This document shows positions 7,229-45,675 of a DNA stretch of 64,000 nt, one piece after another. The stretch is from Frankineae bacterium MT45 (GTDB lineage: Bacteria; Actinomycetota; Actinomycetes; Mycobacteriales; Jatrophihabitantaceae). Positions within the stretch are counted from its first letter, which is position 1. Every line of letters begins with the position of its first letter. The stretch lies in the NCBI GenBank assembly GCA_900100325.1, contig LT629697.1, positions 806,001-870,000 on the forward strand, given 5' to 3'. A program made the position numbers and the translations under genes. The notes beneath the pieces were generated by a model that saw nothing but the letters and a program-made list of their open reading frames with translations, was not told the origin of the DNA and made no database searches.

Positions 7229-7747
7229 TCAGCTCGAATGAACCGAAATCGAGCCGCGCTGGACGATGAGCTCGCGCAACTCACGGCAGACTGTCGGGGT
7301 TTCATCACCGTTCGTCGCGGCGAGCTCGAGCAGGTCGCTGGTCTCCCATGTCGTGATGCCGCGAAACCTGGCAAAGCGCAGCGCCTCGCGGTCGTCGGAG
7401 ATCCACCAGGCGCCAGCGAACTCGGGGCGGCTCAGCAGCAAGTGACACGTTTGGGCCTCCCCAAGGTGCTGGAGCGGCGCGTCAGACGTACCACCGAATG
7501 CGCTGCGGCGCAGTCGCTCTACGGCGGCGACGTCCGCGTCGGACTCGAACTCGATTGGCTCGCCCAACCAACCGTCGGAAGCCAACGTCCGCAGATCAGG
7601 TAGGTACGCGGCCGACCGTGATGCTTCGTACGCTATGGCCTCCGTCCAGCGCCCATTCCCATTCAAGACGCTGCGGAGCAAGTCCAAGCGGTGCACCGAC
7701 GCGAAGTTGCACAGAACAGTATTGTCTGGGAACAGGTGTGCCGTCAT
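7229..7747 (-). CDS. PIN-like domain protein, putative RNase
   Basis: The 172-residue product begins MTAHLFPDNTVLCNF, with the strand-Asp pattern that opens PIN domains (Asp8). Further acidic positions fit the four-residue metal site: Glu41 (AIAYEAS), Glu97 (HLGEAQT) and Asp118/Asp119 (WWISDDREAL). PIN proteins are usually Mg2+-dependent ribonucleases, often toxins of toxin-antitoxin pairs. The ATG at 7747 overlaps the stop of the upstream XRE-ImmA gene (ATGA), so the two are translationally coupled. That makes the upstream protein the likely controller, or the antitoxin. Which RNA it would cut cannot be told. Another possibility is that it is a DNA- or RNA-binding effector of the neighbouring DISARM island. 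Confidence 0.75.
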   Translation of the reverse strand: MTAHLFPDNTVLCNFASVHRLDLLRSVLNGNGRWTEAIAYEASRSAAYLPDLRTLASDGWLGEPIEFESDADVAAVERLRRSAFGGTSDAPLQHLGEAQTCHLLLSRPEFAGAWWISDDREALRFARFRGITTWETSDLLELAATNGDETPTVCRELRELIVQRGSISVHSS

Positions 7748-20010: not shown

Positions 20011-22040
20011 GTACCGAACCGTTGGCTACTCCCGGCTTGATCTACGACCCGGCCAATGCCGTTGACCCGCTCGGCGACCTGGACAAACTCGACGACAAGA
20101 TGGTCAGGCGCAACCGGGCCAAGGTCGGATCCAGCCGCCCATCATCCCTGCTCTACACCTACGGACCCGGCGCGGTGATGGATTTGCCGCAATTCACGGT
20201 GATGCCGGCCGGGTTGGACGATTGGGACCGCATCTGGCGTCGCCGCAACGTCGAACCGCCAACGATCCACGCACCGCGACTAAGGGAAGCCGTACGGTTG
20301 TTGCTGCGCAGTCGTGACACCCAACTTCGGCCCTTCCCGTGGCAGCCCAAGCGACACAACCCGTCGCACGAGGGCGATGACCTGGGGGTTCCGGCCCGGA
20401 TCTTCCCCCAGTGGTTTCGCTGCACCGGCTGCGATATGTTGGCCCGGCTCGACAAGTTCGACTACACCAACACCCATCCCTACCGGCCCGATCTCGCCTG
20501 CTTCGAACACGCGAAATGCATGGGACGGCGGGGTACGGCGCGCAAGGCCGGACGCCGGGCCACGGTTCCGGCTCGCTACCTCCTCGCGTGCGTGGACGGT
20601 CACTTGGACGAATTTCCGTATGATTTGTGGGTGCACGGGTTCACGCCGTGCCCGTCAGCTGAGTTCCCGATGCTCCGCATGCTGGAGCGCACAGCTGGCC
20701 GGGGCGCGTCGTCCACCATTGAATGTGCGTCCTGCGGCGCGCGTCGGCCGATGAACGAGGCGCAAGGAGAAATTGGCAAGAGTAAGCTGCCGCGCTGCCG
20801 GGGGCGTCACCCACACCTCGATTCGTTCGAACCCGACGGGTGCAAGAACGAAGTCAAGCTAATGCTCATTGGCGCGTCCAACCTATGGTTCCCGGCCACT
20901 CAGTCGATCGTCGTCATGCCCGAATCGCAGGCCGAACGGAAGGAGAACGTTGTAGACGCCATGCGGCTCGAAGTCGGCGACAAGCTCACGAAGTACGCGG
21001 ACGCACCGGACATAGTGCGCGACTTGCTCGACGGCAAGGTCGACCTGTCGTCGTTCACCGACGATGACGTCAAAGGTCTGGTCGCCGCAGCGTTGGCTCC
21101 CCCGGCTCCGGCCGAGGAACAGGAGGAACGGGCGCGGAATTGGGATCCGGTGGACCTGCTCGTACCGGAATGGACGTACCTCAAACGGGATCCGCGCGGA
21201 CCGCATGACACCGACGAACGCAGCGGCCTGACTCTGTCCAAGCAGATGCGCGGCGAACAGTTGCCGCCAGAGATCACCCGCGTGCTGGCGGTGGAGCGAC
21301 TCCGGAAGGTCAACGCACTCGTCGGCTTCACTCGCATCGACGACATGGACCGCGCCGGTGATCTACCCCGGCGACTTGCGCCGCTGACCCGGGCCGAGCG
21401 GCCGGCATGGACCGTCGCCACCGAGGACAGAGGAGAAGGCATCTTCCTTGAGTTCGCCGAGGACCGCATCGCCGCCTGGGAAGCACGCGTCCTCACGTCC
21501 GACATCTGGAAACATCATCGGGCCGCCCACACGCTCAACTTTACGCGGCGGTTCTCCGAAACTGCAGCGCAGATCAACCCGGACGACCGTCTCAAGCCCC
21601 CTCGCTACTGGCTGCTGCACACCTTCGCGCATGTCCTCATCCGTGAATTCGCGATGACCTGCGGATACTCCGCGGCAAGCCTGAGCGAGAGGATCTATGC
21701 CTGGCCCGAGTCCGATGACCGGGCGCCGGCGGCCGGATTCCTGATCTGCACGACCGCCTCCGACAGCGACGGCACCCTCGGTGGATTGGTGCAACTCAGC
21801 GAAGCGTCTCGTCTGGAGCGGGTCGCGCTGGCAGCGCTGCGCCGGGCCCGGCGATGCTCCTCCGATCCGATCTGCGCGATGCGAACGCCGCACGATCCAG
21901 AGGACTTCCTGCACGGCGCCGCGTGCCACTGCTGCGTCATGGCGTCCGAGACGTCGTGCGAACGGGCCAATCGATTCCTCGACCGGCGCCTACTGGTCGA
22001 CCTGCCGGGAAGTGACCTTGGCTTCTTCACCACCCGGTGA
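20007..22040 (+). CDS. drmB: DISARM core protein DrmB (DUF1998)
   Basis: The 677-residue product carries the DUF1998 domain at its C-terminus. Its marks are HTFAHVLIREFAMTCGYSAAS (about 535-555), AGFLICTTASDSDGTLGGLV (about 573-592) and Cys-rich AACHCCVMASETSCERAN. The N-terminal third has paired cysteines (WFRCTGCDM, then CFEHAKCMG) and IECASCGARRP, plausible zinc sites. An early YTYGPGAVMDLP motif is common at the start of DrmB-like proteins. DrmB is the partner of the DrmA helicase. The GTG start at 20007 overlaps the drmA stop (GTGA). Its 3' end overlaps the likely drmC start. Confidence 0.94.
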   Translation: MSTEPLATPGLIYDPANAVDPLGDLDKLDDKMVRRNRAKVGSSRPSSLLYTYGPGAVMDLPQFTVMPAGLDDWDRIWRRRNVEPPTIHAPRLREAVRLLLRSRDTQLRPFPWQPKRHNPSHEGDDLGVPARIFPQWFRCTGCDMLARLDKFDYTNTHPYRPDLACFEHAKCMGRRGTARKAGRRATVPARYLLACVDGHLDEFPYDLWVHGFTPCPSAEFPMLRMLERTAGRGASSTIECASCGARRPMNEAQGEIGKSKLPRCRGRHPHLDSFEPDGCKNEVKLMLIGASNLWFPATQSIVVMPESQAERKENVVDAMRLEVGDKLTKYADAPDIVRDLLDGKVDLSSFTDDDVKGLVAAALAPPAPAEEQEERARNWDPVDLLVPEWTYLKRDPRGPHDTDERSGLTLSKQMRGEQLPPEITRVLAVERLRKVNALVGFTRIDDMDRAGDLPRRLAPLTRAERPAWTVATEDRGEGIFLEFAEDRIAAWEARVLTSDIWKHHRAAHTLNFTRRFSETAAQINPDDRLKPPRYWLLHTFAHVLIREFAMTCGYSAASLSERIYAWPESDDRAPAAGFLICTTASDSDGTLGGLVQLSEASRLERVALAALRRARRCSSDPICAMRTPHDPEDFLHGAACHCCVMASETSCERANRFLDRRLLVDLPGSDLGFFTTR

Positions 22041-22773
22041 CGCGGCCTTCGAGCTCGGGCGGTTGCTCACCCGTGCCGAGGCTGGCGACATAGCGGACCG
22101 ACTCGAGGACGGCGACACGTTGAGCGTGGCACTGAAGGCCGTCGACGCTGGTCGACGTGAGGCGGCCGCACGTTTGATCTCCGATGTGCTCGCGCAGGGA
22201 TTGGCCGGATCGGAATTCTCCGTCGCACTTCGGATGGTCCAGGGGGCGCGGTCGTTGCGTAGCTCGATCGACTCGATCTGGACAATGCCCGGAAACCTGG
22301 TCCAGCACGCGGGCGGTTTGACTGGTGCGGCCGCCGAGTGGGTCGCGGGAGCCTCCGAGTCGGTGACGTGCTCCACGTTCAACTTCCAGAAGTCGTCCGC
22401 GCTCTGGGAAACATTGAAGGAGGTCGCCAACCGCCCGGGATGCGTGGTGCGGATCTATATTGATGCTCAGGCGGCTGACCGGGACGCGGCACATTGGAAA
22501 CCGTCGACGACCGAGATAGCGGCCCACCTCCACCCCGCGCGAACGTTCCGGACGCGGATGTTTGATGGCGGACACGTTCGAAATCACGCTAAATTCATCG
22601 CTGTCGATCACAGATTCCTGCTCGTTACCAGCGCCAACTTCTCGGCCAGCGCCGAGAAGCACAACGTCGAATTCGGTGTCCGAATCGATGACCGAGCGCT
22701 AACCGAACACGTCGAGTCGACCGTCCGCAAGGCTGAAGACGCGATATACGAACGGGTCATTCCAGTGCGATAG
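22018..22773 (+). CDS. drmC: DISARM phospholipase D-family nuclease DrmC
   Basis: The product of about 250 residues contains a single HKD motif, NHAKFIAVD (His about residue 190), followed by LLVTSANFSASAEKHNVEFG. This is the PLD-superfamily phosphodiesterase signature, so an active site probably forms by dimerisation. The start is uncertain. TTG 22018 has GGGAAG about five bases upstream and reads MASSPPGDAAFELG; GTG 22012 is the alternative. Either overlaps drmB by 20-30 bases. DrmC is the last gene of class 1 DISARM and has been reported as not always essential for protection. The gene ends 175 bases before a convergent gene on the other strand, which closes the operon. Confidence 0.9.
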   Translation: MASSPPGDAAFELGRLLTRAEAGDIADRLEDGDTLSVALKAVDAGRREAAARLISDVLAQGLAGSEFSVALRMVQGARSLRSSIDSIWTMPGNLVQHAGGLTGAAAEWVAGASESVTCSTFNFQKSSALWETLKEVANRPGCVVRIYIDAQAADRDAAHWKPSTTEIAAHLHPARTFRTRMFDGGHVRNHAKFIAVDHRFLLVTSANFSASAEKHNVEFGVRIDDRALTEHVESTVRKAEDAIYERVIPVR

Positions 22774-22947: not shown

Positions 22948-25900
22948 TCACCGACCGGCTGCCACGCCAAGGATGCACGCCGAGATGCGCTGGTCGAGCG
23001 GTTCGATGCTCCTGGCATTCGTCATCACTTCGACTACCTGAGCCAACGGCAGTGGATCGCGCCGAAGGTCAGGGTCTATGTCGACGAGCCTGCTGTATCG
23101 ACGTCTCGGATTCGCGGCACGAAACGTTTGGCGGCGAGGTTGGACGAGGGTCAGCCACAGTTCAGCAACTTGGTACAGATCGACCGACGCTGCGCCGGTA
23201 GGTGGTTCGGCGAGTTTACCCAATGATGCCCAGGTCTGAGCCACGTCGTAGGCAGCGGCGCCGAAGGATGCCTCCGACCATTCATGGCACATGCGACTCA
23301 TCTGGGCCAGTGCTCGTTGAAATCGACGGGGCAGCAAGGCGATCTCGTACTGAGCGGCCCAATCGAGAAACATGCTGAGTGGTCCTACGCACTCCTCGCT
23401 GAAAGGTATCCCAGTCGGATTGTGCTGCAGCTTCACGCGTAGACTGTCGACTACGTCGTCCAGTCCGCTGATGACAGCTTTGGGTTGACTTTCGATGAGC
23501 ATCCAGCGGGGTGCACCATTCAGCGTTCCTCGTATGGCAAAAAATGCCCAAGCGGTTTCGCTCTGGACGGGACTTAAGCGGGCGAGCACACGGTGGGCAT
23601 CGCTCCGGCAGTCTCGATACACGCCCTGTGGGATAAGGGCATCCTCTCCTTGAACAAGCCGCCGCACCGGGTCGAGCGCATCGTGGAGACCATCCCAGGG
23701 ACGGTATTCGTTCACGGCTTCGTCAAGGATTGCCTCCATATCGACGAAGTCGCCCCCCGCTTGCGGAATCGGCAGGTTCGATCCAAGTAGCTCGGCGCTT
23801 TCGGCGTTTCGCGCCTGCAGGAGTTCGTCGGCGCGTGTGGCGAACGCTGGTCCGTCGGCCGGCCACATCACCTCGATCGAGTCATACGGCGTATCCATCC
23901 GGTCCACCCGACCGACACGCTGCTCAGCCACCCGCAGTGTGGTTGGCATATCGAAATGCACGACCACAGAGGCTCCCTGTAGGTTGAGACCTTCATTCAT
24001 GGCATCCGAGCAGAGCGCGATCGCGGGCTCTGACGAGGTCGGCGCAAAATAACTGCGGACTCGTTTACGCTCTTGCCCCGCGCCCCCTGTGGCGATGACG
24101 ACAGGCACATTCGCAACGGCAACTAGGGGGCCAATGACCGCTAGAGTAATCGGATGATGATCGAAGGCTAGTATCCGATCATGCTGACGCGCGAGGTCCG
24201 CGATGAGCTTCGCTTTGGCTTGTTCTCTGGCTTGGCTTAGGCCTCCGGCCAGATCTGCGATCTGTCGATACCTGCTGTATTCGGCAAGGCACGCGGCGCG
24301 CCACTGTTCGACATCGACCAGCCAACTCGGGAGCTCACAGTCGAGCTCGACGATCGGCGGTCCTTGGTCGGATGCCAGGGTGAGTCTTGCGAGCATGTCC
24401 CCGGTGGGTTGTGTCTTGGCAAGCGGATCGAGGGACAGCTGGCCGCATGCTTGATCCGTTCCGAGAACGTGTTCGAGCACTGCGGCTTTCGAGGAGCGCA
24501 TTGTTGACAGCACGTGGTAGGCGGCCAGGCCAGCCGCAGAACCCCGACGGAATTCGAGCCACTTTTCGTCTGTGAATTCCCTCCGGCGGGCCGGCGGCAC
24601 GGCGATGTTCCGACCAAGAAACGTCAGTCCAAGCAGAGACGAGGTTATCGCTCGGATGGAGCTTGCGATGTCCTCGTCGCGGGCACTTTCCTGCGTCGGG
24701 TATTGCCTGGGCACATTGCTCGGATACCTGCAGATTCGACCCGTAGTGGGATGCCGGTACGCGTCGGGCTCTCGGTCGACCATCTCATTGAGCATCTTCT
24801 TAGTCCGGCGAACCGTGAACCGCTGGATCTCGCGTCGCAACAACTCCTTCTGTTCTTCGCCTAGGCTTTGGCCGTGACCTCGGCGGGCTAGCTGGTCGAG
24901 GACGGCCAGCGCGGCGTCGTCAAAGTTGTCCGCGCCAAGTAGATCCACCAGGGCAAGCAGGTCGTCACCTCCACGATTGATCGGAGTCGCTGTGAACATG
25001 AGCACGTGGTCAGCCGCTGAATCTCTGATCCGCCCGGTTCGATTCGAGCGCCGCGCCAGGAAATTGTGTGCTTCGTCGATGGCGAGGATCTGGGCATGAG
25101 CAACCTCGTCTTCCTCAACTCGATGAATCACGGTGCCCGGGCGACTGAGCAATCCGTGAGAAACACTCCGGATCGTCAAGCCGCAGGATGCTGACTCCCT
25201 TAGCCACGCTGATTCCACTGCGGGCGGGCAGACAAGTACGGTCAACCCGCTACGCACACGTCCGGTATTCCATAGGCGATCGCGTACTGCCCGGGTCAGG
25301 TGGGCGCCCATTCTTGTCTTGCCGGAACCAGTTGCATCCGCGACGAGAACGCTGCCAACATTTTCGACCACCCACAACGCCTCCGCGATACCGGACTGCT
25401 GCGATGGCCACAGATCGGTAAGACCGCCGATGGAAGCAAAGTAGTTGGCGGCCCATTGCCCCTCCAAGAGGTCCGCACAGGCCCGAGCGAGCGCCTCTTG
25501 CCACGACACCATCTGCAGCATCTGCTCGAGAAGATCCCGCATTTCGGCACTCCAGTCGACACCAACGATCCAGTAGTTCTCGGCGACGTGCTTGAGGTCG
25601 GCAAATCGTTTGGGGTCATTTTCGGCGGCGAATCGGGAGTTTGCTTCGAAGTTCCTGCGCAACCCAGCTTCGGTGAAGTTGCTTGATCCGACCGTCGCCG
25701 CGTGGTCGCCGATGTATATTTTCGCGTGAAGCCGCTCTGATCCAGGCACGAACCTAACCTCGAACCACTGCTCGTCAAGCGCCTGAAGGGTCTGCACAAT
25801 TTTTGCTGACAGTCTCAGCGAAATTCCCCGCTCCTCCACCCAGTATCTGCGCACGTCTTTGGTGAACGACTCGGCGGGTGACCCAAACGCGCGTCGCTCG

Positions 25901-26205
25901 GTGGCGAACGGCTCGGTGCCGAGGAGGACTCGCACGTGGCGTGGCCTAGGCGCGGTTGAGTCCGCGACAAATTCGATGATCTTCGCGATCGACGCAAATC
26001 CTGCTACCATCAGAGGCTCCGTACATCGCACCAGATCGCGCCAGACATCATCGATCACTCTGGATTTGGCATGGTTGACCGGAAACTCTGATTTGGGTGG
26101 CCACGCCATTCGGCCCAGCTCGATGCTTGGTCGAGGATCGAATCTAAACGAGAAGAGACCGTCTCCTGCGGGGTGGTAAGAGCCGGGATTCGCACCTCTG
26201 GGCAT
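22948..26205 (-). CDS. PLD-nuclease/SNF2-helicase fusion protein
   Basis: The 1085-residue product has an N-terminal PLD-like domain with RLHAKIYIGD (His about residue 159) then VGSSNFTEAGLRRNFEAN. An SF2/SNF2 helicase follows: Walker A VADATGSGKTRMG (about 287-299), IDEAHNF (about 372), TATPINRGG, and RVAEQRVGRVDRMD (motif VI, about 755-768). A C-terminal region of ~300 residues is unassigned. The start at ATG 26205 has GAGGGGTG upstream; the longer frame to 26265 lacks this. It lies downstream of the PD-(D/E)XK gene in the same orientation (107-base gap) and converges on drmC. The fusion suggests DNA tracking plus cutting. It differs from Mokosh proteins, whose helicase is SF1. Function as an anti-phage effector is inferred from context. 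Confidence 0.82.
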   Translation of the reverse strand: MPRGANPGSYHPAGDGLFSFRFDPRPSIELGRMAWPPKSEFPVNHAKSRVIDDVWRDLVRCTEPLMVAGFASIAKIIEFVADSTAPRPRHVRVLLGTEPFATERRAFGSPAESFTKDVRRYWVEERGISLRLSAKIVQTLQALDEQWFEVRFVPGSERLHAKIYIGDHAATVGSSNFTEAGLRRNFEANSRFAAENDPKRFADLKHVAENYWIVGVDWSAEMRDLLEQMLQMVSWQEALARACADLLEGQWAANYFASIGGLTDLWPSQQSGIAEALWVVENVGSVLVADATGSGKTRMGAHLTRAVRDRLWNTGRVRSGLTVLVCPPAVESAWLRESASCGLTIRSVSHGLLSRPGTVIHRVEEDEVAHAQILAIDEAHNFLARRSNRTGRIRDSAADHVLMFTATPINRGGDDLLALVDLLGADNFDDAALAVLDQLARRGHGQSLGEEQKELLRREIQRFTVRRTKKMLNEMVDREPDAYRHPTTGRICRYPSNVPRQYPTQESARDEDIASSIRAITSSLLGLTFLGRNIAVPPARRREFTDEKWLEFRRGSAAGLAAYHVLSTMRSSKAAVLEHVLGTDQACGQLSLDPLAKTQPTGDMLARLTLASDQGPPIVELDCELPSWLVDVEQWRAACLAEYSRYRQIADLAGGLSQAREQAKAKLIADLARQHDRILAFDHHPITLAVIGPLVAVANVPVVIATGGAGQERKRVRSYFAPTSSEPAIALCSDAMNEGLNLQGASVVVHFDMPTTLRVAEQRVGRVDRMDTPYDSIEVMWPADGPAFATRADELLQARNAESAELLGSNLPIPQAGGDFVDMEAILDEAVNEYRPWDGLHDALDPVRRLVQGEDALIPQGVYRDCRSDAHRVLARLSPVQSETAWAFFAIRGTLNGAPRWMLIESQPKAVISGLDDVVDSLRVKLQHNPTGIPFSEECVGPLSMFLDWAAQYEIALLPRRFQRALAQMSRMCHEWSEASFGAAAYDVAQTWASLGKLAEPPTGAASVDLYQVAELWLTLVQPRRQTFRAANPRRRYSRLVDIDPDLRRDPLPLAQVVEVMTNARSIEPLDQRISACILGVAAGR

Positions 26206-26312
26206 CTTTGTCACCCCTCGCTTGGATAGCTGACGTCTGCAGACTATCGGCGGGGTCCGACACAAGGCGGCAGAAGGCGAGCACCGCGTGACTTGTCGCC
26301 CGTCGAATCCGG

Positions 26313-27410
26313 CTACCCTGCGAGCAGCGTGTCGAGTGCCGCGGAGATTGTCGGCAACGCAGCTGGGTCAGCAAATATGGCCGACGCGGGAATCGAGGGC
26401 CTCCGGGCCCAATTCACGTTCGGTGCGTCTGCGCCGATAGACGCAACACCCGGAAGGGCCAGCAGTGAATCGCGGAATGCGGCGGTTGAAGCGCCCGGGA
26501 TACCCTTACCCTTCTTGAAGATCCAGTCGTAGTTAACCGCCCAGGTGTCCTTACCGCCTGCGCTCATGTAGAACGTCCACGGCTGGATGTCGCCGTAGTC
26601 GGTGTGAAACCACGGTGTGACACTCGGATGCTCTCCCGTGCCCCAGTACAGATGACTGAAGTTCTCATGAATCGTTGCGTGTTCGAGTAGTGCGCCAATT
26701 GCGGCGGCGACATGAGGCGGGCAACGGTTGGCCAAGGTCGCCCGGAAGCTAGCTTCGTCGTGCTCGGCAACTTTCACCGATTTGCGAGCGGCCGCCTCAG
26801 CTCCGTAGGTCTGCGGGATGAGGATCTGCACATCGCCGTCCTGGATGTACTCGAACTCCATGGCGACAATTTCAAGGTCGTCAGCTGTACGGCGATTTAG
26901 AAATTCTACTATTCGACGCAGCTCAGGTGTGATGTGGTCGACCGCGAGAATCAACCGAAAACGACCTGCAGCTAGGTTTCGGTCGACCGCGTGTCGGAAC
27001 GTCGCCTCGTCGAAGTCTAGTTGTTGTTCTGCTGCCAATTTGAGCGCGTCGCCGACTAAGTCTCGCCCCGCAGTACCCCGCCACGCCGATTCGAGTTCGC
27101 GAGAAGTCCATGCGCTCATACCTGACGCGTAGGCCATGATCTGGCCGACGATCTCCCGGCGGATCTCCGGGTTCGAACGGAGCTTGCACTCGGCAAGTGT
27201 TAAGGAGCCGTCAAGACCAACCACTGCGATGTCGAGTCGTCCGGTCCCCGCGATCTCCATCTCCAGCGCGACCAGCGAACCCACGGTCCCGACTCCGTGC
27301 AATAGGTCGGGCGATTCGGCGAGGATCGCCTGCAACGCCGATTCATTGGTGTACGTCGTGGTCTGTGGAACGTGCCATCCGCCATCTCCCTGCCGTCGGA
27401 GGAGAGCCAT
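26313..27410 (-). CDS. PD-(D/E)XK-like nuclease, uncharacterised
   Basis: The 365-residue product has a restriction-endonuclease-like core near its N-terminus: Asp60 (RLDIAVV), then Glu74-Cys-Lys76 (TLAECKL), then Gln90 (EIVGQIMAYA). This is the D-(x)n-E-x-K...Q layout of PD-(D/E)XK proteins of the DUF91/NucS-like kind. The C-terminal half (VTPWFHTDYGDIQPWTFY, then KDTWAVNYDWIFKKGKGIPG) is unassigned and may bind DNA or a partner. ATG 27410 has GAGAGGA about nine bases upstream, supporting this start. It is the first gene of a probable two-gene unit with the PLD-SNF2 helicase, 397 bases from the divergent glycosylase fusion. I infer a DNA-cleaving role with the helicase; the exact family needs a profile search. 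Confidence 0.72.
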   Translation of the reverse strand: MALLRRQGDGGWHVPQTTTYTNESALQAILAESPDLLHGVGTVGSLVALEMEIAGTGRLDIAVVGLDGSLTLAECKLRSNPEIRREIVGQIMAYASGMSAWTSRELESAWRGTAGRDLVGDALKLAAEQQLDFDEATFRHAVDRNLAAGRFRLILAVDHITPELRRIVEFLNRRTADDLEIVAMEFEYIQDGDVQILIPQTYGAEAAARKSVKVAEHDEASFRATLANRCPPHVAAAIGALLEHATIHENFSHLYWGTGEHPSVTPWFHTDYGDIQPWTFYMSAGGKDTWAVNYDWIFKKGKGIPGASTAAFRDSLLALPGVASIGADAPNVNWARRPSIPASAIFADPAALPTISAALDTLLAG

Positions 27411-27807
27411 GTTGAGTAGTCCTCTCGTGGGGCGTGGCGCGGTCGTATACGCGACGCTGTCATTTCTTAAAGCGGGATAGCTTTCAACACGACATCACAT
27501 CGCAGGGTAACCCGCGTTCGGCCGTCGTGCACCGGCGGTGTCTCACAAGGCGTTGGCGAACTAGTCGCGCCAGCGCCACCTACTCGATCGACAAGGTCGA
27601 ACTTCAGACTTCGCGGACCAAGGTACGGCGCCGTCGCAAGCCCGAAGCGAGGGACACAGCCGTATCTGGCCGGGGGTCCACAGTTCAGAACGACTCCGAC
27701 CCGCTCGTGATCGCGATCGCTCGATCTGAAATTCGGCCTGCTGGCACGTTCAGTTTCACTGCAGAACTCGCCGTGATGACGGTATCGGGTCACTCCAGCA
27801 CGTCGAT
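27411..27807. promoter_or_regulatory. Divergent intergenic region, nuclease/helicase unit versus glycosylase fusion
   Basis: These 397 bases separate two divergent genes and should hold both promoters. Open frames of ~125 codons exist on both strands, but neither shows protein character or a ribosome binding site. I saw no clear -10/-35 pair or strong dyad. Confidence 0.35.
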
Positions 27808-29160
27808 ATGATCCATGGGCGGCCAGCAACGTCAGTAAGGTCAATCACCCTCATGCAACCCTCCTCCCAGAGCCCCGCAGGTCGGCTCAGCGCGGATATC
27901 GTCCTCGTTGGCTGCGCAAGGCAGAAGCAGCAGCGACCTTCTCGCGCGAGCGATCTGTATACGTCCGATGCGTACCGGAAGCGGAGGTTGATCGCTACAG
28001 CCGTGGCACCGCGATGGTTCATCCTGTCTGCCGAACACGGCCTGGTCGAGCCCAATGAGTGGCTAGCACCCTATGACCTCTACCTCGGCGACACCTCCAT
28101 GGAATATCGCTCTGCATGGGGGAATTGGTGCGTCGCACGGCTGCATGCAAAAGTCGGCGACCTTCATGGGATTAGCGTTCTCGTCCTCGCGCCGGCTGCG
28201 TACGCCAATGCGATTCGGAGCCCATTGCGGGAGGCAGGCGCGACCAGTAGCGAGCCGCTCGCGGGTCTGCGCCAGGGAGAGCAAGCCTCATGGTTGAGTC
28301 GCGAAGTCGCCGCGCTGGCCGGTCGCGGCGCGCCGCTCCAGCCAAGCGAGCCCGCATTGCCACCGAGCGGCGATATCGCGGGACGGGGGCCGTCAGAGCT
28401 CAGTCGGGACCAGAGCATCTGCGAAGCGCTGCTCAAGTACCGAGAGCGAAATCAACACCTTCACGACACTAGGCTCGGATACTCCGACAGCGCTGAGGCG
28501 GATTCCCTATTGGTCGACGACCCGTTTGCCTATCTGCTTGGAGTTTTGCTCGATGAGGGAATTCCCGCAGAACGGGCGTGGACTGGTCCCTACCTGCTCA
28601 AGCAGCGCCTGGGGCATCTTGATCCGTATCGACTTCGACATGAGGCCTCAGCCGTGCGAGCAGCTGTCGACCAGACACCGAAGATCCACCGATACATCGA
28701 CGTCATGTCGAATGCGATCGTGCTGGCCGCCGATCGGGTCTGCGTAACTTTCGACGGCGATGCGTCTCGCATTTGGGCGCCAGGATCGACAGCTGAGCAA
28801 GTCGACGCCCGATTCCAGCAGTTCCACAAGATCGGGCCCAAGAAAGCTGCGATGGCGGTTGAGCTTCTCATCAGCCACTTCGGGATCAAACTTGCCGATC
28901 ACGCCGGGACGAATGTTGCGTACGACGTGCACGTCCGACGGGTCTTTCTCCGTGCCGGGTTGGTCAATCACGACTCGTTCGCCGAGATCACCGAGGCTGC
29001 TCGTCGCCTGAACCCGGACCGTCCGGGGCTACTTGACCTGCCCACTTGGTTGGTTGGACGTCGTTGGTGCAAGGCGCAGCTACCCGACTGCGGAAATTGC
29101 CCGATCTCCACGGAGTGCCGCAAGCTCACTGATCGAAACGTCGGCCAGGCTCCGCAGTGA
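27808..29160 (+). CDS. DUF6884-like domain fused to an endonuclease III-type DNA glycosylase
   Basis: Residues ~28-170 look like DUF6884: IVLVGCARQK, DLYTSDAYRKRR, FILSAEHGLV then LAPYDLYLGD. Residues ~200-440 are an HhH-GPD DNA glycosylase. The helix-hairpin-helix reads HKIGPKKAAMAVELL (340-354). Lys345 aligns with the catalytic Lys of endonuclease III, and Asp373 in AYDVHVRRV aligns with its catalytic Asp. Cys421-x6-Cys428-x2-Cys431-x5-Cys437 is exactly the [4Fe-4S] spacing of Nth. Both the glycosylase/lyase residues and the cluster are therefore kept. ATG 27808 is used; ATG 27853 is an alternative, neither with a strong ribosome binding site. It lies beside DISARM and the nuclease-helicase pair. 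I infer base excision on foreign or modified DNA; ordinary repair is the alternative. Confidence 0.8.
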   Translation: MIHGRPATSVRSITLMQPSSQSPAGRLSADIVLVGCARQKQQRPSRASDLYTSDAYRKRRLIATAVAPRWFILSAEHGLVEPNEWLAPYDLYLGDTSMEYRSAWGNWCVARLHAKVGDLHGISVLVLAPAAYANAIRSPLREAGATSSEPLAGLRQGEQASWLSREVAALAGRGAPLQPSEPALPPSGDIAGRGPSELSRDQSICEALLKYRERNQHLHDTRLGYSDSAEADSLLVDDPFAYLLGVLLDEGIPAERAWTGPYLLKQRLGHLDPYRLRHEASAVRAAVDQTPKIHRYIDVMSNAIVLAADRVCVTFDGDASRIWAPGSTAEQVDARFQQFHKIGPKKAAMAVELLISHFGIKLADHAGTNVAYDVHVRRVFLRAGLVNHDSFAEITEAARRLNPDRPGLLDLPTWLVGRRWCKAQLPDCGNCPISTECRKLTDRNVGQAPQ

Positions 29161-29855: not shown

Positions 29856-32800
29856 GTGACTGTTTCAATGGCTCGTCGATCTTCAATTGCTTCGATTTGC
29901 GCCCTTTTGCTCGTCGTAGCTGGCTTCGCCGCTCCGGTGAATGCGCGTGCTGCTACAGTGCCGGTCGTCTCGGCCGTTGCACCGGCAACGGGCACCTCGC
30001 TGGGTGGCACCGTGGTGGCGGTGACCGGGACGGGGTTTACGGGTGCGACCTCCGTGACCTTTGGAGGCGTCGCCGGCACATCGCTTTCAGTTGCATCGGC
30101 GACGTCGCTGACGGTTGTCTCGCCAGCGCATGCCGTGGGGGCAGTTGATATCCAAGTCAGCACTCCAGCTGGCATTTCCTCCGTGGTCGCTGCGGACAAG
30201 TTCACGTATGGGCTTGCCCCAACAGTCACCGTCACGTCTCCATCGGTTGGCCCGGTGGCCGGCGGCACGACCGTGACACTGACAGGCACCGGATTCGTCG
30301 GAATCACCAACGTCACGTTTGGCACAACGGCGGGGACGGCCGTAACGGTTGCGTCGGCGACCAAGCTGACCGTCGTTGCGCCTGCGCATGCGGCCGGCCT
30401 GGTCGACGTACGCGTGACAGGTTCGTACGGTACGTCTGCAGTCGCAGCGGTCGATCATTACACCTACGGGCCTGCCGTCTCAGCCGTATCTCCGCGCAGC
30501 GGTGCAACCACTGGTGGGGGGACGGTGACCCTGACGGGGGCCGGGTTCGTGGGTGTGACTTCAGTGAACTTCGGAACGACTGCTGGGATCAGCCTTACGG
30601 TCGTCTCAGCCACCCAACTGACGGTTGTAGCGCCCGCACATTCGGCCGGGGTGGTGGACATTCGAGTAGTCGGGGCGTATGGAACGTCCGCGATCGCCAC
30701 TGCTGATCGCTACACCTACGGCCCGGCGGTGACGCTCGTTTCTCCGTCAACAGGACCGGTTACTGGTGGCACCAGGGTGACTCTGACCGGCACCGGATTC
30801 ACGGGCGTTACTGCGGTCAACTTCGGGACGACGGCGGGCACGGGGATCAACGTGGCTTCTGCGACGTCGTTGACTGTCACCGCGCCCGCGCATGTGGCGG
30901 GGCTCGTAGATGTACGCGTCGTCGGAACGCTAGGAACGTCGGCAATTGTCAGCACGGACCACTTCACCTACGTACCTGCGCCGGTCGTCACGGCGATGTC
31001 GCCGTCGGTGGGTTCGACCCTCGGTGGAACCACGGTCACGGTGACGGGTACTGGTTTTACTGGTGCGTCTGGGGTGAGTTTCGGTGGTGTGGCTGGTTCG
31101 TCGGTGGTGGTGGTGTCGGCGACGTCGTTGACGGTGGTTTCTCCGGTGCATGGGGTGGGGGTGGTGGATGTTCAGGTGACTGGGCCGTATGGGGTGTCTT
31201 CGGTTAGTGCGGCTGATCAGTTCACTTTTGTTGCGCCGCCTGTGGTTTCTGGGGTTTCGCCTGCTTCTGGCAGTACGACGGGGGGTAAGACCGTCACCAT
31301 CACGGGGAGCGGGTTTGCGGGTGCGACTGGCGTTGACTTCGGTGGTGTGGCGGGGACGTCGGTGACGGTGGTGTCGGCGACGTCGTTGACGGTGCTCGCT
31401 CCGGCTCATGCGGCGGGTCTGGTGGATGTGGTGGTTTCCGGTCCGTTTGGTTCGTCGGGTGTGGTGGCGGGGGATCGGTTTACGTTTGTGGCGCCGCCGG
31501 TGGTGACGGGAGTGGCGCCGTTGACGGGTGTGATCGCTGGTGGGACGAAGGTGACGATCACTGGCACTGGTTTCACTGGTGCCACTGGGGTGAGTTTCGG
31601 TGGTGTGGCTGGGACGTCGGTGACGGTGGTGTCGGCGACGTCGTTGACGGTGCTGGCTCCGGCTCATGCGGCGGGTGTGGTGGATGTTCAGGTGACTGGC
31701 CCGTATGGGACGTCGGGTGTTGTCGCGGCGGATCGGTACACCTTTGTGAAGGTGGCGGTGGTGTCGGGTTTGTCGCCGGCCAGTGGTCCGGTGAGTGGTG
31801 GGACGACGGTGACGGTGACGGGCACTGGTTTCCTCGGGGCGAGCAAGGTGGTGTTCGGTTCGGTTGCGGCGTCGAGTTTCGTGGTGGTGTCGGATACGCA
31901 GATCAGTGCGGTGTCGCCGGCGGAGGCGGCGAGTGCGCACACGGTGTATGTGGTCAACGCGGCTGGTTCATCGGGTGGTGGTGCGGCAACGGTGTTCACG
32001 TTCGCGGCGGCGCCGGTGGTCAGCGCGGTCGCTCCGGCGACGGGTAGTTCCTTAGGCGGTTCGCTGGTGACGGTGACCGGAACGGGGTTCACCGGTGCGT
32101 CGAACGTGAGTTTCGGTGGTGTGGCTGGGACGTCGGTGACGGTGGTGTCGGCGACGTCGTTGACGGTGCTCGCCCCGGCGCACGCGGCGGGGGTGGTCGA
32201 TGTTCAGGTGACGACACCGGGTGGGGTGTCGGCTGTGGTGGTTGGTGATCTGTTCACCTACGGTGTCGCTTCGGCGGTCACGGGGGTCAGCCCGGCTGCG
32301 GGGTCGATCATCGGTGGGACTCTGGTGACCGTCACGGGGACGGGGTTCACTGGTGCCACTGGGGTGAGTTTCGGTGGTGTGGCGGGGGCGTCGGTGACGG
32401 TGGTGTCGGCGACGAAGCTGACCGTGGTGGCTCCGGCGGGCGCGGCGGGGGTGGTCGATGTTCAGGTGACTGGCCCGTATGGGACGTCTGTGGCTGTCGC
32501 GGCGGACAAGTTCACCTATGTTGCACCCCCGGCCGTGACTGGTGTCGCGCCGGCGACGGGCGTGATCGCTGGTGGGACGAAGGTGACGATCACCGGGACC
32601 GGGTTCACCGGTGCCACTGGGGTGAGTTTCGGTGGTGTCGCTGGGTCGTCGGTGACCGTCGTATCGGCCACCTCGATCACCGTCACCGCCCCCGCCCACA
32701 CCGCCGGAGTGGTCGATCTGCAAGTCACCGGCCCCTACGGAACCTCCACCACAACAACCACAGACAAATACACCTACGTGAAGGTGGCGGTGGTGACCTC

Positions 32801-35800
32801 GTTGTCACCATCCAGCGGACCGATCACGGGTGGAACCACGGTCACGATCACCGGCACCGGCTTCCTCGGCACGAGCAAGATCCTCTTTGGTTCGGTCACG
32901 GCGAGCTTCGTCGTGCTGTCCGATACGCAGATCAATGCGGTAACGCCCGCCGAAGCGGCCAGCTCTCACACCGTCTATGTGGTCAACGCTGCCGGTACAT
33001 CCGCTGCATCCCCAGGAGCGGTCTTCACGTTTGCTGCGGCGCCGGTCGTCACGGCGATGTCGCCGTCGGTGGGTTCGACCCTCGGTGGAACCACGGTCAC
33101 GGTGACGGGTACTGGTTTTACTGGTGCGTCTGGGGTGAGTTTCGGTGGTGTGGCTGGTTCGTCGGTGGTGGTGGTGTCGGCGACGTCGTTGACGGTGGTT
33201 TCTCCGGTGCATGGGGTGGGGGTGGTGGATGTTCAGGTGACTGGGCCGTATGGGGTGTCTTCGGTTAGTGCGGCTGATCAGTTCACTTTTGTTGCGCCGC
33301 CTGTGGTTTCTGGGGTTTCGCCTGCTTCTGGCAGTACGACGGGGGGTAAGACCGTCACCATCACGGGGAGCGGGTTTGCGGGTGCGACTGGCGTTGACTT
33401 CGGTGGTGTGGCGGGGACGTCGGTGACGGTGGTGTCGGCGACGTCGTTGACGGTGCTCGCTCCGGCTCATGCGGCGGGTCTGGTGGATGTGGTGGTTTCC
33501 GGTCCGTTTGGTTCGTCGGGTGTGGTGGCGGGGGATCGGTTTACGTTTGTGGCGCCGCCGGTGGTGACGGGAGTGGCGCCGTTGACGGGTGTGATCGCTG
33601 GTGGGACGAAGGTGACGATCACTGGCACTGGTTTCACTGGTGCCACTGGGGTGAGTTTCGGTGGTGTGGCTGGGACGTCGGTGACGGTGGTGTCGGCGAC
33701 GTCGTTGACGGTGCTGGCTCCGGCTCATGCGGCGGGTGTGGTGGATGTTCAGGTGACTGGCCCGTATGGGACGTCGGGTGTTGTCGCGGCGGATCGGTAC
33801 ACCTTTGTGAAGGTGGCGGTGGTGTCGGGTTTGTCGCCGGCCAGTGGTCCGGTGAGTGGTGGGACGACGGTGACGGTGACGGGCACTGGTTTCCTCGGGG
33901 CGAGCAAGGTGGTGTTCGGTTCGGTTGCGGCGTCGAGTTTCGTGGTGGTGTCGGATACGCAGATCAGTGCGGTGTCGCCGGCGGAGGCGGCGAGTGCGCA
34001 CACGGTGTATGTGGTCAACGCGGCTGGTTCATCGGGTGGTGGTGCGGCAACGGTGTTCACGTTCGCGGCGGCGCCGGTGGTCAGCGCGGTCGCTCCGGCG
34101 ACGGGTAGTTCCTTAGGCGGTTCGCTGGTGACGGTGACCGGAACGGGGTTCACCGGTGCGTCGAACGTGAGTTTCGGTGGTGTGGCTGGGACGTCGGTGA
34201 CGGTGGTGTCGGCGACGTCGTTGACGGTGCTCGCCCCGGCGCACGCGGCGGGGGTGGTCGATGTTCAGGTGACGACACCGGGTGGGGTGTCGGCTGTGGT
34301 GGTTGGTGATCTGTTCACCTACGGTGTCGCTTCGGCGGTCACGGGGGTCAGCCCGGCTGCGGGGTCGATCATCGGTGGGACTCTGGTGACCGTCACGGGG
34401 ACGGGGTTCACTGGTGCCACTGGGGTGAGTTTCGGTGGTGTGGCGGGGGCGTCGGTGACGGTGGTGTCGGCGACGAAGCTGACCGTGGTGGCTCCGGCGG
34501 GCGCGGCGGGGGTGGTCGATGTTCAGGTGACTGGCCCGTATGGGACGTCTGTGGCTGTCGCGGCGGACAAGTTCACCTATGTTGCACCCCCGGCCGTGAC
34601 TGGTGTCGCGCCGGCGACGGGCGTGATCGCTGGTGGGACGAAGGTGACGATCACCGGGACCGGGTTCACCGGTGCCACTGGGGTGAGTTTCGGTGGTGTC
34701 GCTGGGTCGTCGGTGACCGTCGTATCGGCCACCTCGATCACCGTCACCGCCCCCGCCCACACCGCCGGAGTGGTCGATCTGCAAGTCACCGGCCCCTACG
34801 GAACCTCCACCACAACAACCACAGACAAATACACCTACGTGTCGGGCCCGGCGATTACGGCAATTTCTCCTTCAAGCGGAAGTACGACCGGTGGCTCGAC
34901 GATCACGATTGCTGGAACAGGGCTCACCGGCGCAACGTCGGTGAATTTCGGTGCGACCGCAGGGTCCTCGCTGACCGTCGTGTCGGCCACGTCGCTAACC
35001 GTCGTAGCGCCGGCGCATGTGGCGGGTGTTGTCGACGTTCAGATCGTGGGTCCCTATGGGACTTCACCGGTCGTGGTGGCCGACCAATACACTTACGCCG
35101 TATTGCCAGTCATATCGACGATCTCGCCAACCTCCGGCACTACGGCTGGCGGCACTACGGTGACGATCACCGGAACCGGCTTCTCCAGCGCAACGAAGGT
35201 GGCATTCGGAACGACGTCTGCCACGAGCTACGCCGTCATCTCAGACACGCAGATCACAGCGACCGCGCCGGCGCAGCCTGCGGGGACCCAAGACATCCTC
35301 GTTACTGGTCCTGGCGGTACGAGTGCGCCCGGTCTGCCCGACGTATTCACGTATGTGTCGCCGCCAACGGTGACGACGGTGTCCCCAGCGACGGGAACGG
35401 CGGTAGGTGGCACAACGGTCACGGTCACCGGGACCGGATTCACCGGTGCGACCGTCGTGAGTTTCGGCGGCGTCGCAGCCACGTCGATCAGCATCGCGTC
35501 GTCGACCTCTTTGACAGCGGTTACGCCGGTTCACGCGACGGGTGCCGTGGATGTTCAAGTCACGGGGCCGTACGGTTCGTCAGCTGCCGTGACCGGCGAC
35601 AAGTACACCTTCGTCGACGTGACAGCGCCGGCCCCGGTGACTGGTATGACCGCGACACCCGGAAGTACCAGCGTTGTGCTCACATGGACCAACCCCACCG
35701 ACGCTGACTTCACCGGGGTAATGATTCGGCGGGCTGCCGGGTCGACGCCACCGGCTACTGCGACGGCCGGCACGTTAGTTAAGAACACGAGTGCACCGTT

Positions 35801-38800
35801 GACCAGTTACACCGACACGGGACTTGCAGGAAGTACTACCTATTCCTACGCATTGTTTGCTCATGATGGCATCCCGAACTACGCAGCCGCAGCGACCGTG
35901 AAGGTCACCACAACCTGCGTACCCGGGCCAAAGCACGTGAGCGGAACGTTGACAGCCAATACAACGTGGGCATCTTCGAGCTGCGTGACGGCCTACGTTC
36001 TGGACAACACGGTAGTTGTCCCGCTCGGAAGGACGCTGGTGCTTCAGGCGGGGGCGATAGTTAAGGCGACCAACGGTTCGTATTTGTCGGTGCAGGGTTC
36101 GTTGGTGGTGTCGGGGACGGTGGCGGCGCCGGTGGTGTTGACGTCGTGGCGGGATGATTCGGTTGGTGGGGACACCAATGGTGATGGTTCTGCGACGGGT
36201 CCGGCGGCTGGTGACTGGGGTGGGATCACTGTGTCGCCGGCGGGTAATGGGAACCCGGATCCGACGATCAGTGTGACGGGGTTGAAGTTGGCCTACGGGA
36301 CGACGGGTTTGTCGGTGTCGCAGTCGACGGTGTCGGTGACGAACAGTGTGTTCACGAAATTGACGGGCGACGGTGTTGATGTGAGCGACGCGGATGATGT
36401 CCCGACGATCACGGGTAACACGGTGACGGCGGTGGCGGGCAACGCGGTCTCTGTTTATGGTTCGTCGTTGGATATGGGGAAGTTGTCGGGTAATTCGGGC
36501 AGCGGGAACGTGCTGAATGGTGTGGTGTTGAGCAATGACACGGTGACGGTGTCGTCGGCGTTGCCGTGGGGTGGGACGTTGGTGCCGGTGTTGCAGAACG
36601 GGTGTGCTTCGGCGTTGACGGTGCCGGTGGGGGTGACGTTGACGTTGGGTGCTGGCACGGTCATCAAGGCTGAGAACAATTGTGGTTCGTATTTGTCGGT
36701 GCAGGGTTCGTTGGTGGTGTCGGGGACGGTGGCGGCGCCGGTGGTGTTGACGTCGTGGCGGGATGATTCGGTTGGTGGGGACACCAATGGTGATGGTTCT
36801 GCGACGGGTCCGGCGGCTGGTGACTGGGGTGGGATCACTGTGTCGCCGGCGGGTAATGGGAACCCGGATCCGACGATCAGTGTGACGGGGTTGAAGTTGG
36901 CCTACGGGACGACGGGTTTGTCGGTGTCGCAGTCGACGGTGTCGGTGACGAACAGTGTGTTCACGAAATTGACGGGCGACGGTGTTGATGTGAGCGACGC
37001 GGATGATGTCCCGACGATCACGGGTAACACGGTGACGGCGGTGGCGGGCAACGCGGTCTCTGTTTATGGTTCGTCGTTGGATATGGGGAAGTTGTCGGGT
37101 AATTCGGGCAGCGGGAACGTGCTGAATGGTGTGGTGTTGAGCAATGACACGGTGACGGTGTCGTCGGCGTTGCCGTGGGGTGGGACGTTGGTGCCGGTGT
37201 TGCAGAACGGGTGTGCTTCGGCGTTGACGGTGCCGGTGGGGGTGACGTTGACGTTGGGTGCTGGCACGGTCATCAAGGCTGAGAACAATTGTGGTTCGTA
37301 TTTGTCGGTGCAGGGTTCGTTGGTGGTGTCGGGGACGGTGGCGGCGCCGGTGGTGTTGACGTCGTGGCGGGATGATTCGGTTGGTGGGGACACCAATGGT
37401 GATGGTTCTGCGACGGGTCCGGCGGCTGGTGACTGGGGTGGGATCACTGTGTCGCCGGCGGGTAATGGGAACCCGGATCCGACGATCAGTGTGACGGGGT
37501 TGAAGTTGGCCTACGGGACGACGGGTTTGTCGGTGTCGCAGTCGACGGTGTCGGTGACGAACAGTGTGTTCACGAAATTGACGGGCGACGGTGTTGATGT
37601 GAGCGACGCGGATGATGTCCCGACGATCACGGGTAACACGGTGACGGCGGTGGCGGGCAACGCGGTCTCTGTTTATGGTTCGTCGTTGGATATGGGGAAG
37701 TTGTCGGGTAATTCGGGCAGCGGGAACGTGCTGAATGGTGTGGTGTTGAGCAATGACACGGTGACGGTGTCGTCGGCGTTGCCGTGGGGTGGGACGTTGG
37801 TGCCGGTGTTGCAGAACGGGTGTGCTTCGGCGTTGACGGTGCCGGTGGGGGTGACGTTGACGTTGGGTGCTGGCACGGTCATCAAGGCTGAGAACAATTG
37901 TGGTTCGTATTTGTCGGTGCAGGGTTCGTTGGTGGTGTCGGGGACGGTGGCGGCGCCGGTGGTGTTGACGTCGTGGCGGGATGATTCGGTTGGTGGGGAC
38001 ACCAATGGTGATGGTTCTGCGACGGGTCCGGCGGCTGGTGACTGGGGTGGGATCACTGTGTCGCCGGCGGGTAATGGGAACCCGGATCCGACGATCAGTG
38101 TGACGGGGTTGAAGTTGGCCTACGGGACGACGGGTTTGTCGGTGTCGCAGTCGACGGTGTCGGTGACGAACAGTGTGTTCACGAAATTGACGGGCGACGG
38201 TGTTGATGTGAGCGACGCGGATGATGTCCCGACGATCACGGGTAACACGGTGACGGCGGTGGCGGGCAACGCGGTCTCTGTTTATGGTTCGTCGTTGGAT
38301 ATGGGGAAGTTGTCGGGTAATTCGGGCAGCGGGAACGTGCTGAATGGTGTGGTGTTGAGCAATGACACGGTGACGGTGTCGTCGGCGTTGCCGTGGGGTG
38401 GGACGTTGGTGCCGGTGTTGCAGAACGGGTGTGCTTCGGCGTTGACGGTGCCGGTGGGGGTGACGTTGACGTTGGGTGCTGGCACGGTCATCAAGGCTGA
38501 GAACAATTGTGGTTCGTATTTGTCGGTGCAGGGTTCGTTGGTGGTGTCGGGGACGGTGGCGGCGCCGGTGGTGTTGACGTCGTGGCGGGATGATTCGGTT
38601 GGTGGGGACACCAATGGTGATGGTTCTGCGACGGGTCCGGCGGCTGGTGACTGGGGTGGGATCACTGTGTCGCCGGCGGGTAATGGGAACCCGGATCCGA
38701 CGATCAGTGTGACGGGGTTGAAGTTGGCCTACGGGACGACGGGTTTGTCGGTGTCGCAGTCGACGGTGTCGGTGACGAACAGTGTGTTCACGAAATTGAC

Positions 38801-45505: not shown

Positions 45506-45675
45506 GGTCCCCCAAAGAATGGCGCCGCATCTCAGCTAATTGGATGCTCCCACGATGTCACCCTCGCCGACAACTACCGCGGATTGCGAGTCCCTCATGG
45601 AGGCACGGGAACTCCATGGCCGTAGTCCGTCAGCACTCCCGTGCGACTCGGACGTACCTGGACCTGCCGGAAGGC

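Follow-up and report, generated by a model that had tools for sequence, protein, structure and literature searches.

What is a DNA glycosylase doing beside a set of anti-phage genes, and what does the second domain fused to its front contribute? The question is raised by a stretch of 64,000 nucleotides from Frankineae bacterium MT45 (contig LT629697.1, positions 806,001 to 870,000), referred to throughout as the window, in which a single gene at 27808-29160 joins a DUF6884 domain to an endonuclease III-type glycosylase domain. A preliminary description of this DNA had proposed that the fusion might recognise or remove a modified base. We consider it about an even chance that the protein is an accessory anti-phage enzyme, in which the DUF6884 half would find or prepare a non-canonical base and the glycosylase/AP (apurinic/apyrimidinic) lyase half would excise it and nick the strand.

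The fusion gene and its active site

The gene is an open reading frame (ORF) with an ATG start and no internal stops over its 450 codons; on the opposite strand, stops interrupt the frame examined. Its parts are as follows.

27808-29160, plus strand: DUF6884-HhH-GPD [4Fe-4S] glycosylase fusion protein, 450 amino acids (aa) (ORF, Pfam, NCBIfam, AlphaFold2)
27898-28302, plus strand: DUF6884 domain, residues 31-165 (Pfam PF21818, E 1.4e-41)
27913-27927, plus strand: CxxxK motif, C36 to K40 (both conserved 25/25)
28303-28392, plus strand: linker, residues 166-195, with 181-189 of low confidence (AlphaFold2 model)
28393-29136, plus strand: endonuclease III-like glycosylase domain, residues 196-443 (2abk, Z 17.1; TIGR03252, E 7.8e-24)
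28840-28842, plus strand: codon of the predicted catalytic Lys345 (aligns with the GRKTA lysine of the Nth-like protein from the same genome)
28924-28926, plus strand: codon of the predicted catalytic Asp373 (alignment with the genome's own Nth-like protein; relatives)
29068-29118, plus strand: [4Fe-4S] cysteines C421, C428, C431 and C437 (sequence, alignments)

The N-terminal half had been described as DUF6884-like, and residues 31-165 do belong to that family, scoring 142.2 bits against PF21818 for a gathering cut-off of 30. Both C36 and K40 are kept in every one of the 25 alignment rows with a residue at those columns, and the LSAxxG motif of DUF6884 reads LSAEHG at residues 73-78. For the C-terminal half, a Pfam scan gave no HhH-GPD match. 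Among the NCBIfam models, TIGR03252 (HhH-GPD base-excision protein) covers residues 225-363 (E 7.8e-24, 84.3 bits, short of the 136.5 that the model requires), and the tail of nth (TIGR01083) covers residues 369-428 (E 1e-3, 18.8 bits, far below the equivalog cut-off of 211.7). Judged by its sequence, this half is a divergent glycosylase of the HhH-GPD [4Fe-4S] type.

The active site reads exactly as first described, in spacing as well as in numbering. The helix-hairpin-helix (HhH) stretch is FHKIGPK(345)KAAM, Asp373 lies within VAYDVHV, and the cluster cysteines are arranged as C421-x6-C428-x2-C431-x5-C437. Across 50 alignment rows of relatives, K345 and D373 are invariant (50/50 each), and the four cysteines are kept in 49, 48, 49 and 49 rows, respectively. 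An alignment with the Nth-like protein from the same genome places K345 and D373 over the catalytic residues and all four cysteines over the cluster, the N-terminal part of that alignment being unreliable. A lysine at the endonuclease III (EndoIII) catalytic position marks bifunctional glycosylase/lyases such as EndoIII and OGG1, and the fusion has the HhH, the lysine, the downstream aspartate and the [4Fe-4S] cysteine pattern of HhH-GPD enzymes of this kind.

The AlphaFold2 model, built from 53 alignment rows, has a mean predicted local distance difference test (pLDDT) score of 90 and a predicted template modelling (pTM) score of 0.66; its two domains are confident, the linker is loose at 181-189 and the start of the chain is disordered. 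Because residues 1-7 and 9-23 fall below pLDDT 50 in this model, the true start of the protein may be M16 (27853) rather than M1.

Comparison with known glycosylases

The top structural match of the model is endonuclease III (2abk; Z 17.1, root-mean-square deviation (rmsd) 3.2 over 204 residues), followed by MutY, the MIG-type thymine-DNA glycosylase 1kea (Z 15.0) and ROS1. The queuosine hydrolase DUF2419 (7ugk), whose substrate contains 7-deazaguanine, also matches, with Z 14.7. Thus, the fusion shares with endonuclease III (Nth) the predicted fold, the HhH, the catalytic Lys/Asp pair and the cluster; it differs in scoring below the nth cut-off, in having the N-terminal part of its glycosylase nearer to TIGR03252, in carrying DUF6884 and in being accessory.

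The preliminary description had also pointed to Brig1-type enzymes as a precedent. By fold the fusion is not one of them: its catalytic domain is modelled as an endonuclease III, not as the uracil-DNA glycosylase-type domain of Brig1 and Brig3. In the passages covered, Brig1 is of the uracil-glycosylase type, is proposed to be primarily monofunctional, and has homologues that often stand beside BREX/Pgl in defence islands (PMC11078745); Brig3, of the same type, works with BapA, which prepares the base, glucosyl-5-hydroxymethylcytosine (glucosyl-5hmC) (PMC13160076). What the fusion has in common with both is that a DNA glycosylase gene lies in a defence island; unlike them it is of EndoIII type with a lyase lysine, and its extra domain is fused rather than separate.

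Distribution and relatives

The fusion is an accessory gene. In a sample of 298 genomes of the order, both halves occur in the window's own genome only, five other genomes matching the DUF6884 side and two the glycosylase side; the single same-genus genome examined (G410) gave no match to the fusion at E 1e-20. In the class sample, four of the 296 genomes match at E 1e-30 (the other three on the DUF6884 side). In the phylum sample, five of the 396 match, and the four besides the window's own do so essentially through the glycosylase; the three samples overlap one another. Because an Nth-like gene (L003) and a TIGR03252-like gene (L002) are present in the genome as well, the fusion is an additional enzyme.

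The window stretches probed against G410 (1-8.9 and 43.9-50 kb) clearly have only ~44705-45575 in common with it (80%), besides two short matches on the left side, and no junction of an empty site was found in them. A 62-bp segment at 6977-7038 is 95% identical to a site in G410 and is possibly an attachment site or a repeat.

To find relatives, two short peptide patterns were run against 84,980 species; they gave 55 loci, an undercount since an exact match was required. The preliminary description had proposed a search for the same two-domain architecture and its neighbours, and the architecture does recur: eight one-ORF DUF6884-glycosylase fusions, namely the window and seven of the 55 loci, are spread over three phyla, six of the eight beside unrelated defence systems. 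The seven are from Tessaracoccus (L008), Actinomycetota (L009), Acidobacteria (L010), Micromonosporaceae (L012, its DUF6884 truncated at a contig end), Chloroflexi (L026) and Acidimicrobiia (L035 and L036). At L025, DUF6884 and the glycosylase are divergent neighbour genes.

The fusions also carry further modules. DUF6884 is preceded by DUF7669 in L008 and by DUF7662 in L009 and L036; in L010, DUF7662 follows it. In L012, L026, L035 and L036 a domain that we call X lies between DUF6884 and the glycosylase; it occurs without fused DUF6884 in L015, L016, L017, L020, L025 and L031, and partially, at contig ends, in L011 and L019. Domain X is about 150 aa long (for example L035:3935-4387 and L016:9521-9970), with the conserved pattern RHGIGRR.VYGR.R.HSVTW...VEGV.ADD, and is mostly beta in the confident AlphaFold2 model of L035. 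It has no Pfam match in the proteins scanned; as to its fold, none of the Foldseek matches reached E 0.001, and a second structural comparison covered almost only residues 1-172.

A quick tree of 51 glycosylase domains separates two groups. One, a starred clade (97), consists of 32 rows that have neither DUF6884 nor X; all are labelled Actinomycetota, and about half are Coriobacteriia by their titles. The other 19 rows comprise the eight with DUF6884, eight with X only and three with neither (L013, L014 and L059). Their phyla are Actinomycetota, Acidobacteriota and Chloroflexota, with a fourth for L059, a long branch of doubtful standing; within these rows, the window groups with L008 and L009 in a starred trio (98). 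The Rhodococcus homologue at L014:10001-10726 has a frame that stops (10657) before the Fe-S cluster and a match that continues beyond it, from either a broken gene or a sequencing error.

The 32-row clade is syntenic, in that four genes around the L021 glycosylase have homologues in 22-28 of the 29 loci compared. That homologues might sit in core repair loci had been named as a refutation of the defence reading, and it applies in part: this clade has a conserved, syntenic locus and is likely to be simply a core repair gene, but the fused forms have no such locus. For the fusion itself we reject a simple copy of a core repair gene, its two halves occurring together in no other genome of the order sample. 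In the 29 loci, which are of the L021 and L050 type, one conserved neighbour looks dCTP deaminase-like by eye, which makes a uracil-linked role a candidate there.

At residue 249, all 18 rows that fall outside the syntenic clade (the eight with DUF6884, the eight with X only, L013 and L014, with L059 excluded) have Asp, and all 32 rows of the clade have Thr. Because this position presumably sits near the base pocket, going by the EndoIII sequence, it may be a specificity switch and mark a changed substrate.

As for mobile DNA, the fusion protein as query found no match in viral contigs, and a profile search of the same contigs gave three loci with the glycosylase only (L113-L115). In two of these, L114 and L115, the glycosylase is on one strand and the remaining genes, which look phage-structural by eye, are on the other. 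Matches to the fusion were obtained from 63 plasmid and 93 phage records, none covering 80% of the query; among the 60 matches listed, all but one (H8) are on the DUF6884 side.

The DUF6884 half

Most of the bacterial and viral DUF6884 ORFs in the searches are short, single-domain proteins of about 135-210 aa, unlike the fusion, in which the domain is joined to a glycosylase. The preliminary description had associated DUF6884 loosely with base chemistry, and this association is borne out by two papers, in the passages that concern the domain. In one, DUF6884 is grouped with YaaA, an oxidative-stress DNA-binding protein, the motifs CxxxK and LSAxxG are named as a possible active site, Bacillus subtilis YfjM is listed among the interactors of abasic and RNA-base lesions, and an AlphaFold3 model of YfjM predicts nucleotide flipping (PMC11701544). 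In the other, DUF6884 is named as a domain of DpdC, a protein of the 7-deazaguanine DNA system that is needed for the 7-amido-7-deazaguanine DNA mark (PMC11888242). The fusion resembles these DUF6884/YaaA (DUF328) proteins, YfjM and DpdC included, in having both motifs and, in a homologue, a YaaA-like predicted fold.

The homologue in question is the Acidimicrobiia protein L035, whose DUF6884 and domain X part was modelled with AlphaFold2 at pLDDT 90. Out of 999 chains, its best structural match is Escherichia coli YaaA (5caj; Z 10.0, rmsd 3.7 over 140 residues), the aligned range of 1-276 running partly into domain X, and AF0587 comes second (Z 8.9). The first 50 Foldseek matches include 2q07 and lack 5caj, and the DUF6884 profile matches 5caj only at E 1.7. 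Judged from the model of this homologue rather than from the window's own domain, DUF6884 is predicted to have the YaaA-superfamily (cantaloupe) fold.

The link to DpdC is a lead suggested by sequence, the profile comparison (given further below) being weak. The PADLOC model of DpdC matches the fusion over residues 38-98 with E 6.9e-5; a search of 396 genomes of the phylum found DpdC in one, which is not the window's own. On this lead one can imagine a two-step eraser, in which a DpdC-like DUF6884 would edit a hypermodified base and the EndoIII half would excise the product and nick the strand, by analogy with BapA and Brig3. We regard this specific scheme as distinctly unlikely; a 7-deazaguanine such as preQ0 would be its natural candidate base. 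If true, it would make DUF6884 a general base-targeting head for a glycosylase or a GIY-YIG nuclease.

GIY-YIG nucleases are brought in by a Pfam scan of eight larger DUF6884 ORFs lacking the glycosylase, taken from the order, class and phylum searches with L080, L082 and L083 excluded. A GIY_YIG_2 nuclease follows DUF6884 in seven of them (L063, L064, L065, L066, L081, L127 and L128), and the eighth, L075, has DUF6884 and DUF7662 only. Four of the seven carry DUF7669 in front and one carries DUF7662, as do the glycosylase fusions L008, L009 and L036 between them; the difference lies in the catalytic domain, GIY_YIG_2 in one set and HhH-GPD in the other. Because the same front modules precede either version, the simplest reading of these architectures is that DUF6884 serves as an aiming module, a common DNA-finding head with exchangeable DNA-attacking ends. 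At L118, a wider view of L065, a NERD-helicase and a PDC-S37/Hhe-like helicase adjoin, much as at L035, and the DUF6884-GIY-YIG proteins are candidate defence nucleases in their own right.

The defence neighbourhood

The fusion gene had been placed in a defence island, beside a nuclease/helicase pair. The island is confirmed, with a complete DISARM class 1 operon, drmD-drmMI-drmA-drmB-drmC (8958-22773), that ends 5.0 kb before the fusion gene, and with a PLD-SNF2 gene and a PDC-S11-like gene nearby; as for the pair, the nuclease (PLD) and the helicase (SNF2) are domains of one protein.

8958-12194, plus strand: DrmD, DISARM class 1 helicase (NF038317, 1228 bits, cut-off 610)
12191-16267, plus strand: DrmMI methyltransferase (PADLOC, 1650.7 bits)
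16264-20010, plus strand: DrmA (PADLOC, E 3e-288)
20007-22040, plus strand: DrmB (PADLOC, E 9.2e-70)
21781-22773, plus strand: DrmC PLD nuclease (NF038319, 158.9 bits, cut-off 133)
22948-26265, minus strand: PLD nuclease and SNF2 helicase protein, 1105 aa (Pfam, PADLOC)
26313-27410, minus strand: PDC-S11-like protein, 365 aa, divergent neighbour from a candidate defence family (PADLOC, E 8.9e-14)
27411-27807, no strand: 397-bp intergenic stretch between the divergent PDC-S11-like and fusion genes, probably regulatory (from the coordinates)

The GC content at third codon positions (GC3) is 0.68 in the fusion gene, 0.68 in the PDC-S11-like gene and 0.66 in the PLD-SNF2 gene, versus 0.73-0.84 in the Drm genes, and because it is lower, these three genes suggest a separate cassette beside DISARM. 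The PLD-SNF2 protein is weakly DrmD-, DpdE- and DrmC-like and passes no NCBIfam cut-off.

Six of the eight one-ORF fusions are flanked by PADLOC defence matches, and the systems are of different kinds. Besides DISARM in the window, they are HKD-Snf2 and a type III restriction-modification (R-M) system with an N6_N4-type methylase at L008, ZacABC and a C5 methylase at L009, an Mrr-like gene (mREase_IV/PDC-S02) adjoining the fusion 33 bases downstream at L010, BrxHI and BrxD at L012, and NERD-helicase, Hhe-like and PDC-S11 genes at L035. In a pooled scan of eight DUF6884-linked loci, where BrxC and PglZ also appear for the pool as a whole rather than for a given locus, 83 PADLOC models (25 of them listed) are matched by 45 neighbours, including the DUF6884 gene of L025; as the models overlap, 83 is not a count of genes. 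As a control, 45 neighbours in four standalone loci of the syntenic clade match only the DndA and SspA models, with two members each. These two models also catch housekeeping cysteine desulfurases. Loci that have domain X but no fused DUF6884 are intermediate. The link with defence tracks DUF6884 most closely.

With these data in hand, the alternative of accessory DNA repair can be weighed, in which the protein would mend host lesions or collateral damage from the island's nucleases, with DUF6884 as a lesion-binding recruiter. The EndoIII fold and active site, and the conserved, syntenic gene of the related clade, would suit such a role, as would YaaA, the oxidative-stress DNA binder, and YfjM, the abasic-site interactor, as they are presented in PMC11701544. 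The genome, however, already has its Nth-like and TIGR03252-like genes, both halves are found in none of the other genomes of the order sample, the same-genus genome included, and the fused forms adjoin defence genes whereas the sampled standalone forms do not. On balance, accessory repair seems to us rather unlikely.

The methylases near several fused loci bring up a companion of the MIG kind, which would remove deamination products (T from G:T mismatches) that arise from the island's own methylation. MIG stands next to its R-M system, and 1kea, a glycosylase of the MIG type, is among the structural matches; yet MIG is not known to have a lysine at the position of K345, which is Lys in 50 of 50 rows here. 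Moreover, the window's DrmMI is an Eco57I/MmeI-type methylase and that of L008 an N6_N4-type one, and neither type is a 5-methylcytosine enzyme, even if L009 does have a C5 methylase. Such a companion role is very unlikely.

The same variety of modification systems could be taken to favour restriction by base excision, as by R.PabI, where a normal base would be excised at an unmethylated sequence and a methyltransferase would protect the host. The fold of R.PabI is a different one, and with partners as unrelated as DISARM, type III, BREX and a C5 methylase, one protective mark would hardly suffice. Even with its precedent, in that restriction by base excision exists (PMC10273834, in the part covered), we hold this explanation to be highly improbable.

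Shared partners were sought by BLAST among the called genes of 17 loci (for the window, genes starting at 5-45 kb), and no partner gene is shared besides the glycosylase and DUF6884; what remains is helicase-motif matches and, apart from these, the two weak pairs L008/L013 (E 2e-5) and L020/window 5040 (E 4e-4). A constant partnership with the PLD-SNF2 or the PDC-S11-like neighbour is accordingly rejected. The window's PDC-S11-like protein is not significantly similar by BLAST to that of L035 (E 0.11) or to a similarly placed L008 gene (E 1.3), although both the window and the L035 neighbours match PDC-S11 models. The fusion is likewise rejected as a DISARM component: it shares the island, but its GC3 is lower and its closest relatives adjoin other systems, type III R-M and HKD-Snf2 at L008, Zac at L009 and BREX at L012; with 25 of the 83 models of the pooled scan listed, single drm matches may exist at other loci.

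The lack of a constant partner also bears on the idea of an abortive-infection toxin, triggered by infection and attacking host and phage DNA alike. A DNA-nicking lyase could be toxic, and the exchange of warheads with a GIY-YIG nuclease would fit an effector; however, the comparison of loci yielded no constant partner gene, and the core fold is common to the syntenic, core-like clade, so that toxicity is not obvious. We find this possibility quite improbable.

Proposed action and its weighing

What the preliminary description said of the architecture, the active site, the island and the base-handling DUF6884 is supported, and the architecture recurs; the fold is not of the Brig1 type, and the PLD-SNF2 protein is not a constant neighbour. 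Returning to the reading as an accessory anti-phage enzyme, we infer its catalysis, its target base, its action on phage DNA and the division of labour between its halves along the following lines. The DUF6884 half, as a YaaA-like DNA module, would find its way in double-stranded DNA to a lesion or non-canonical base, which it may also flip or pre-process; a BapA-like base-preparing helper might, in other words, be fused on here as DUF6884. K345, activated by D373, would then attack C1' of the flipped nucleotide, free the base and beta-eliminate, each target base becoming a nick or an abasic site. The targets would be invading DNA with hypermodified bases that blind the neighbouring DISARM, BREX and R-M enzymes, and the excisions and nicks would block replication and open entry points for the nuclease-helicases of the island. 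The likely target is phage DNA with modified bases, since it can escape systems of the kinds that lie next to the fusion (DISARM, BREX and R-M); the same argument is made for Brig1 beside BREX, CRISPR and restriction enzymes in the relevant passages of PMC11078745.

Base-excision defence itself is known, in the papers covered here from the uracil-glycosylase-type Brig1 and Brig3 and from restriction glycosylases of the R.PabI type, and what would be new is a variant, another enzyme family with its own targeting head. In the open-licence literature, partly among the matches listed, we found no EndoIII/HhH-GPD-type glycosylase in phage defence and no DUF6884-glycosylase fusion. The word glycosylase is absent from the main text, so far as covered, of a BREX survey (PMC12839542), and the passages on DUF6884 in PMC11701544 and PMC11888242 do not contain such a fusion. 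If the proposal is true, an EndoIII-type glycosylase/lyase with its own base-targeting head, standing beside six kinds of defence genes, would be a further independent invention, able both to excise bases and to cut the strand. A role would also come into view for DUF6884, which is widespread, occurs in phages as well and is classed as a domain of unknown function: that of a modular head already combined in nature with two unlike DNA-attacking domains.

Several observations count against this proposal. The fusions L026 and L036 have no defence match among the one and two neighbours, respectively, that were tested singly (they may have some in the pooled scan, of whose 83 models 25 were listed), and loci having domain X without fused DUF6884 are less rich in defence genes, with 12 PADLOC models (best E 2e-37) for 38 genes of seven loci. 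The DUF6884 label takes five changes on the glycosylase tree, and the partnership has therefore often been gained or lost; the enzyme core, moreover, may serve ordinary repair, because the related clade is syntenic and core-like. On the side of DUF6884, hhalign against one DpdC homologue gave a weak E of 0.042, versus 0.34 for a control protein, a Pfam scan of the single DpdC homologue gave no DUF6884 match, and the Foldseek matches of the L035 model all fell short of E 0.001.

Other features of the window

Upstream of the DISARM operon, a minus-strand gene at 7744-8847 encodes a helix-turn-helix (HTH) and an IrrE-like metallopeptidase, and could regulate the island or belong to a mobile element. 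The window also holds two giant repeat ORFs: one at 29856-39995 (3379 aa), with 22 TIG domains, beta-helix stretches and 14 copies of a 258-bp repeat, and another at 53499-63722 (3407 aa), which spans an array of 12.7 copies of a 399-bp unit.

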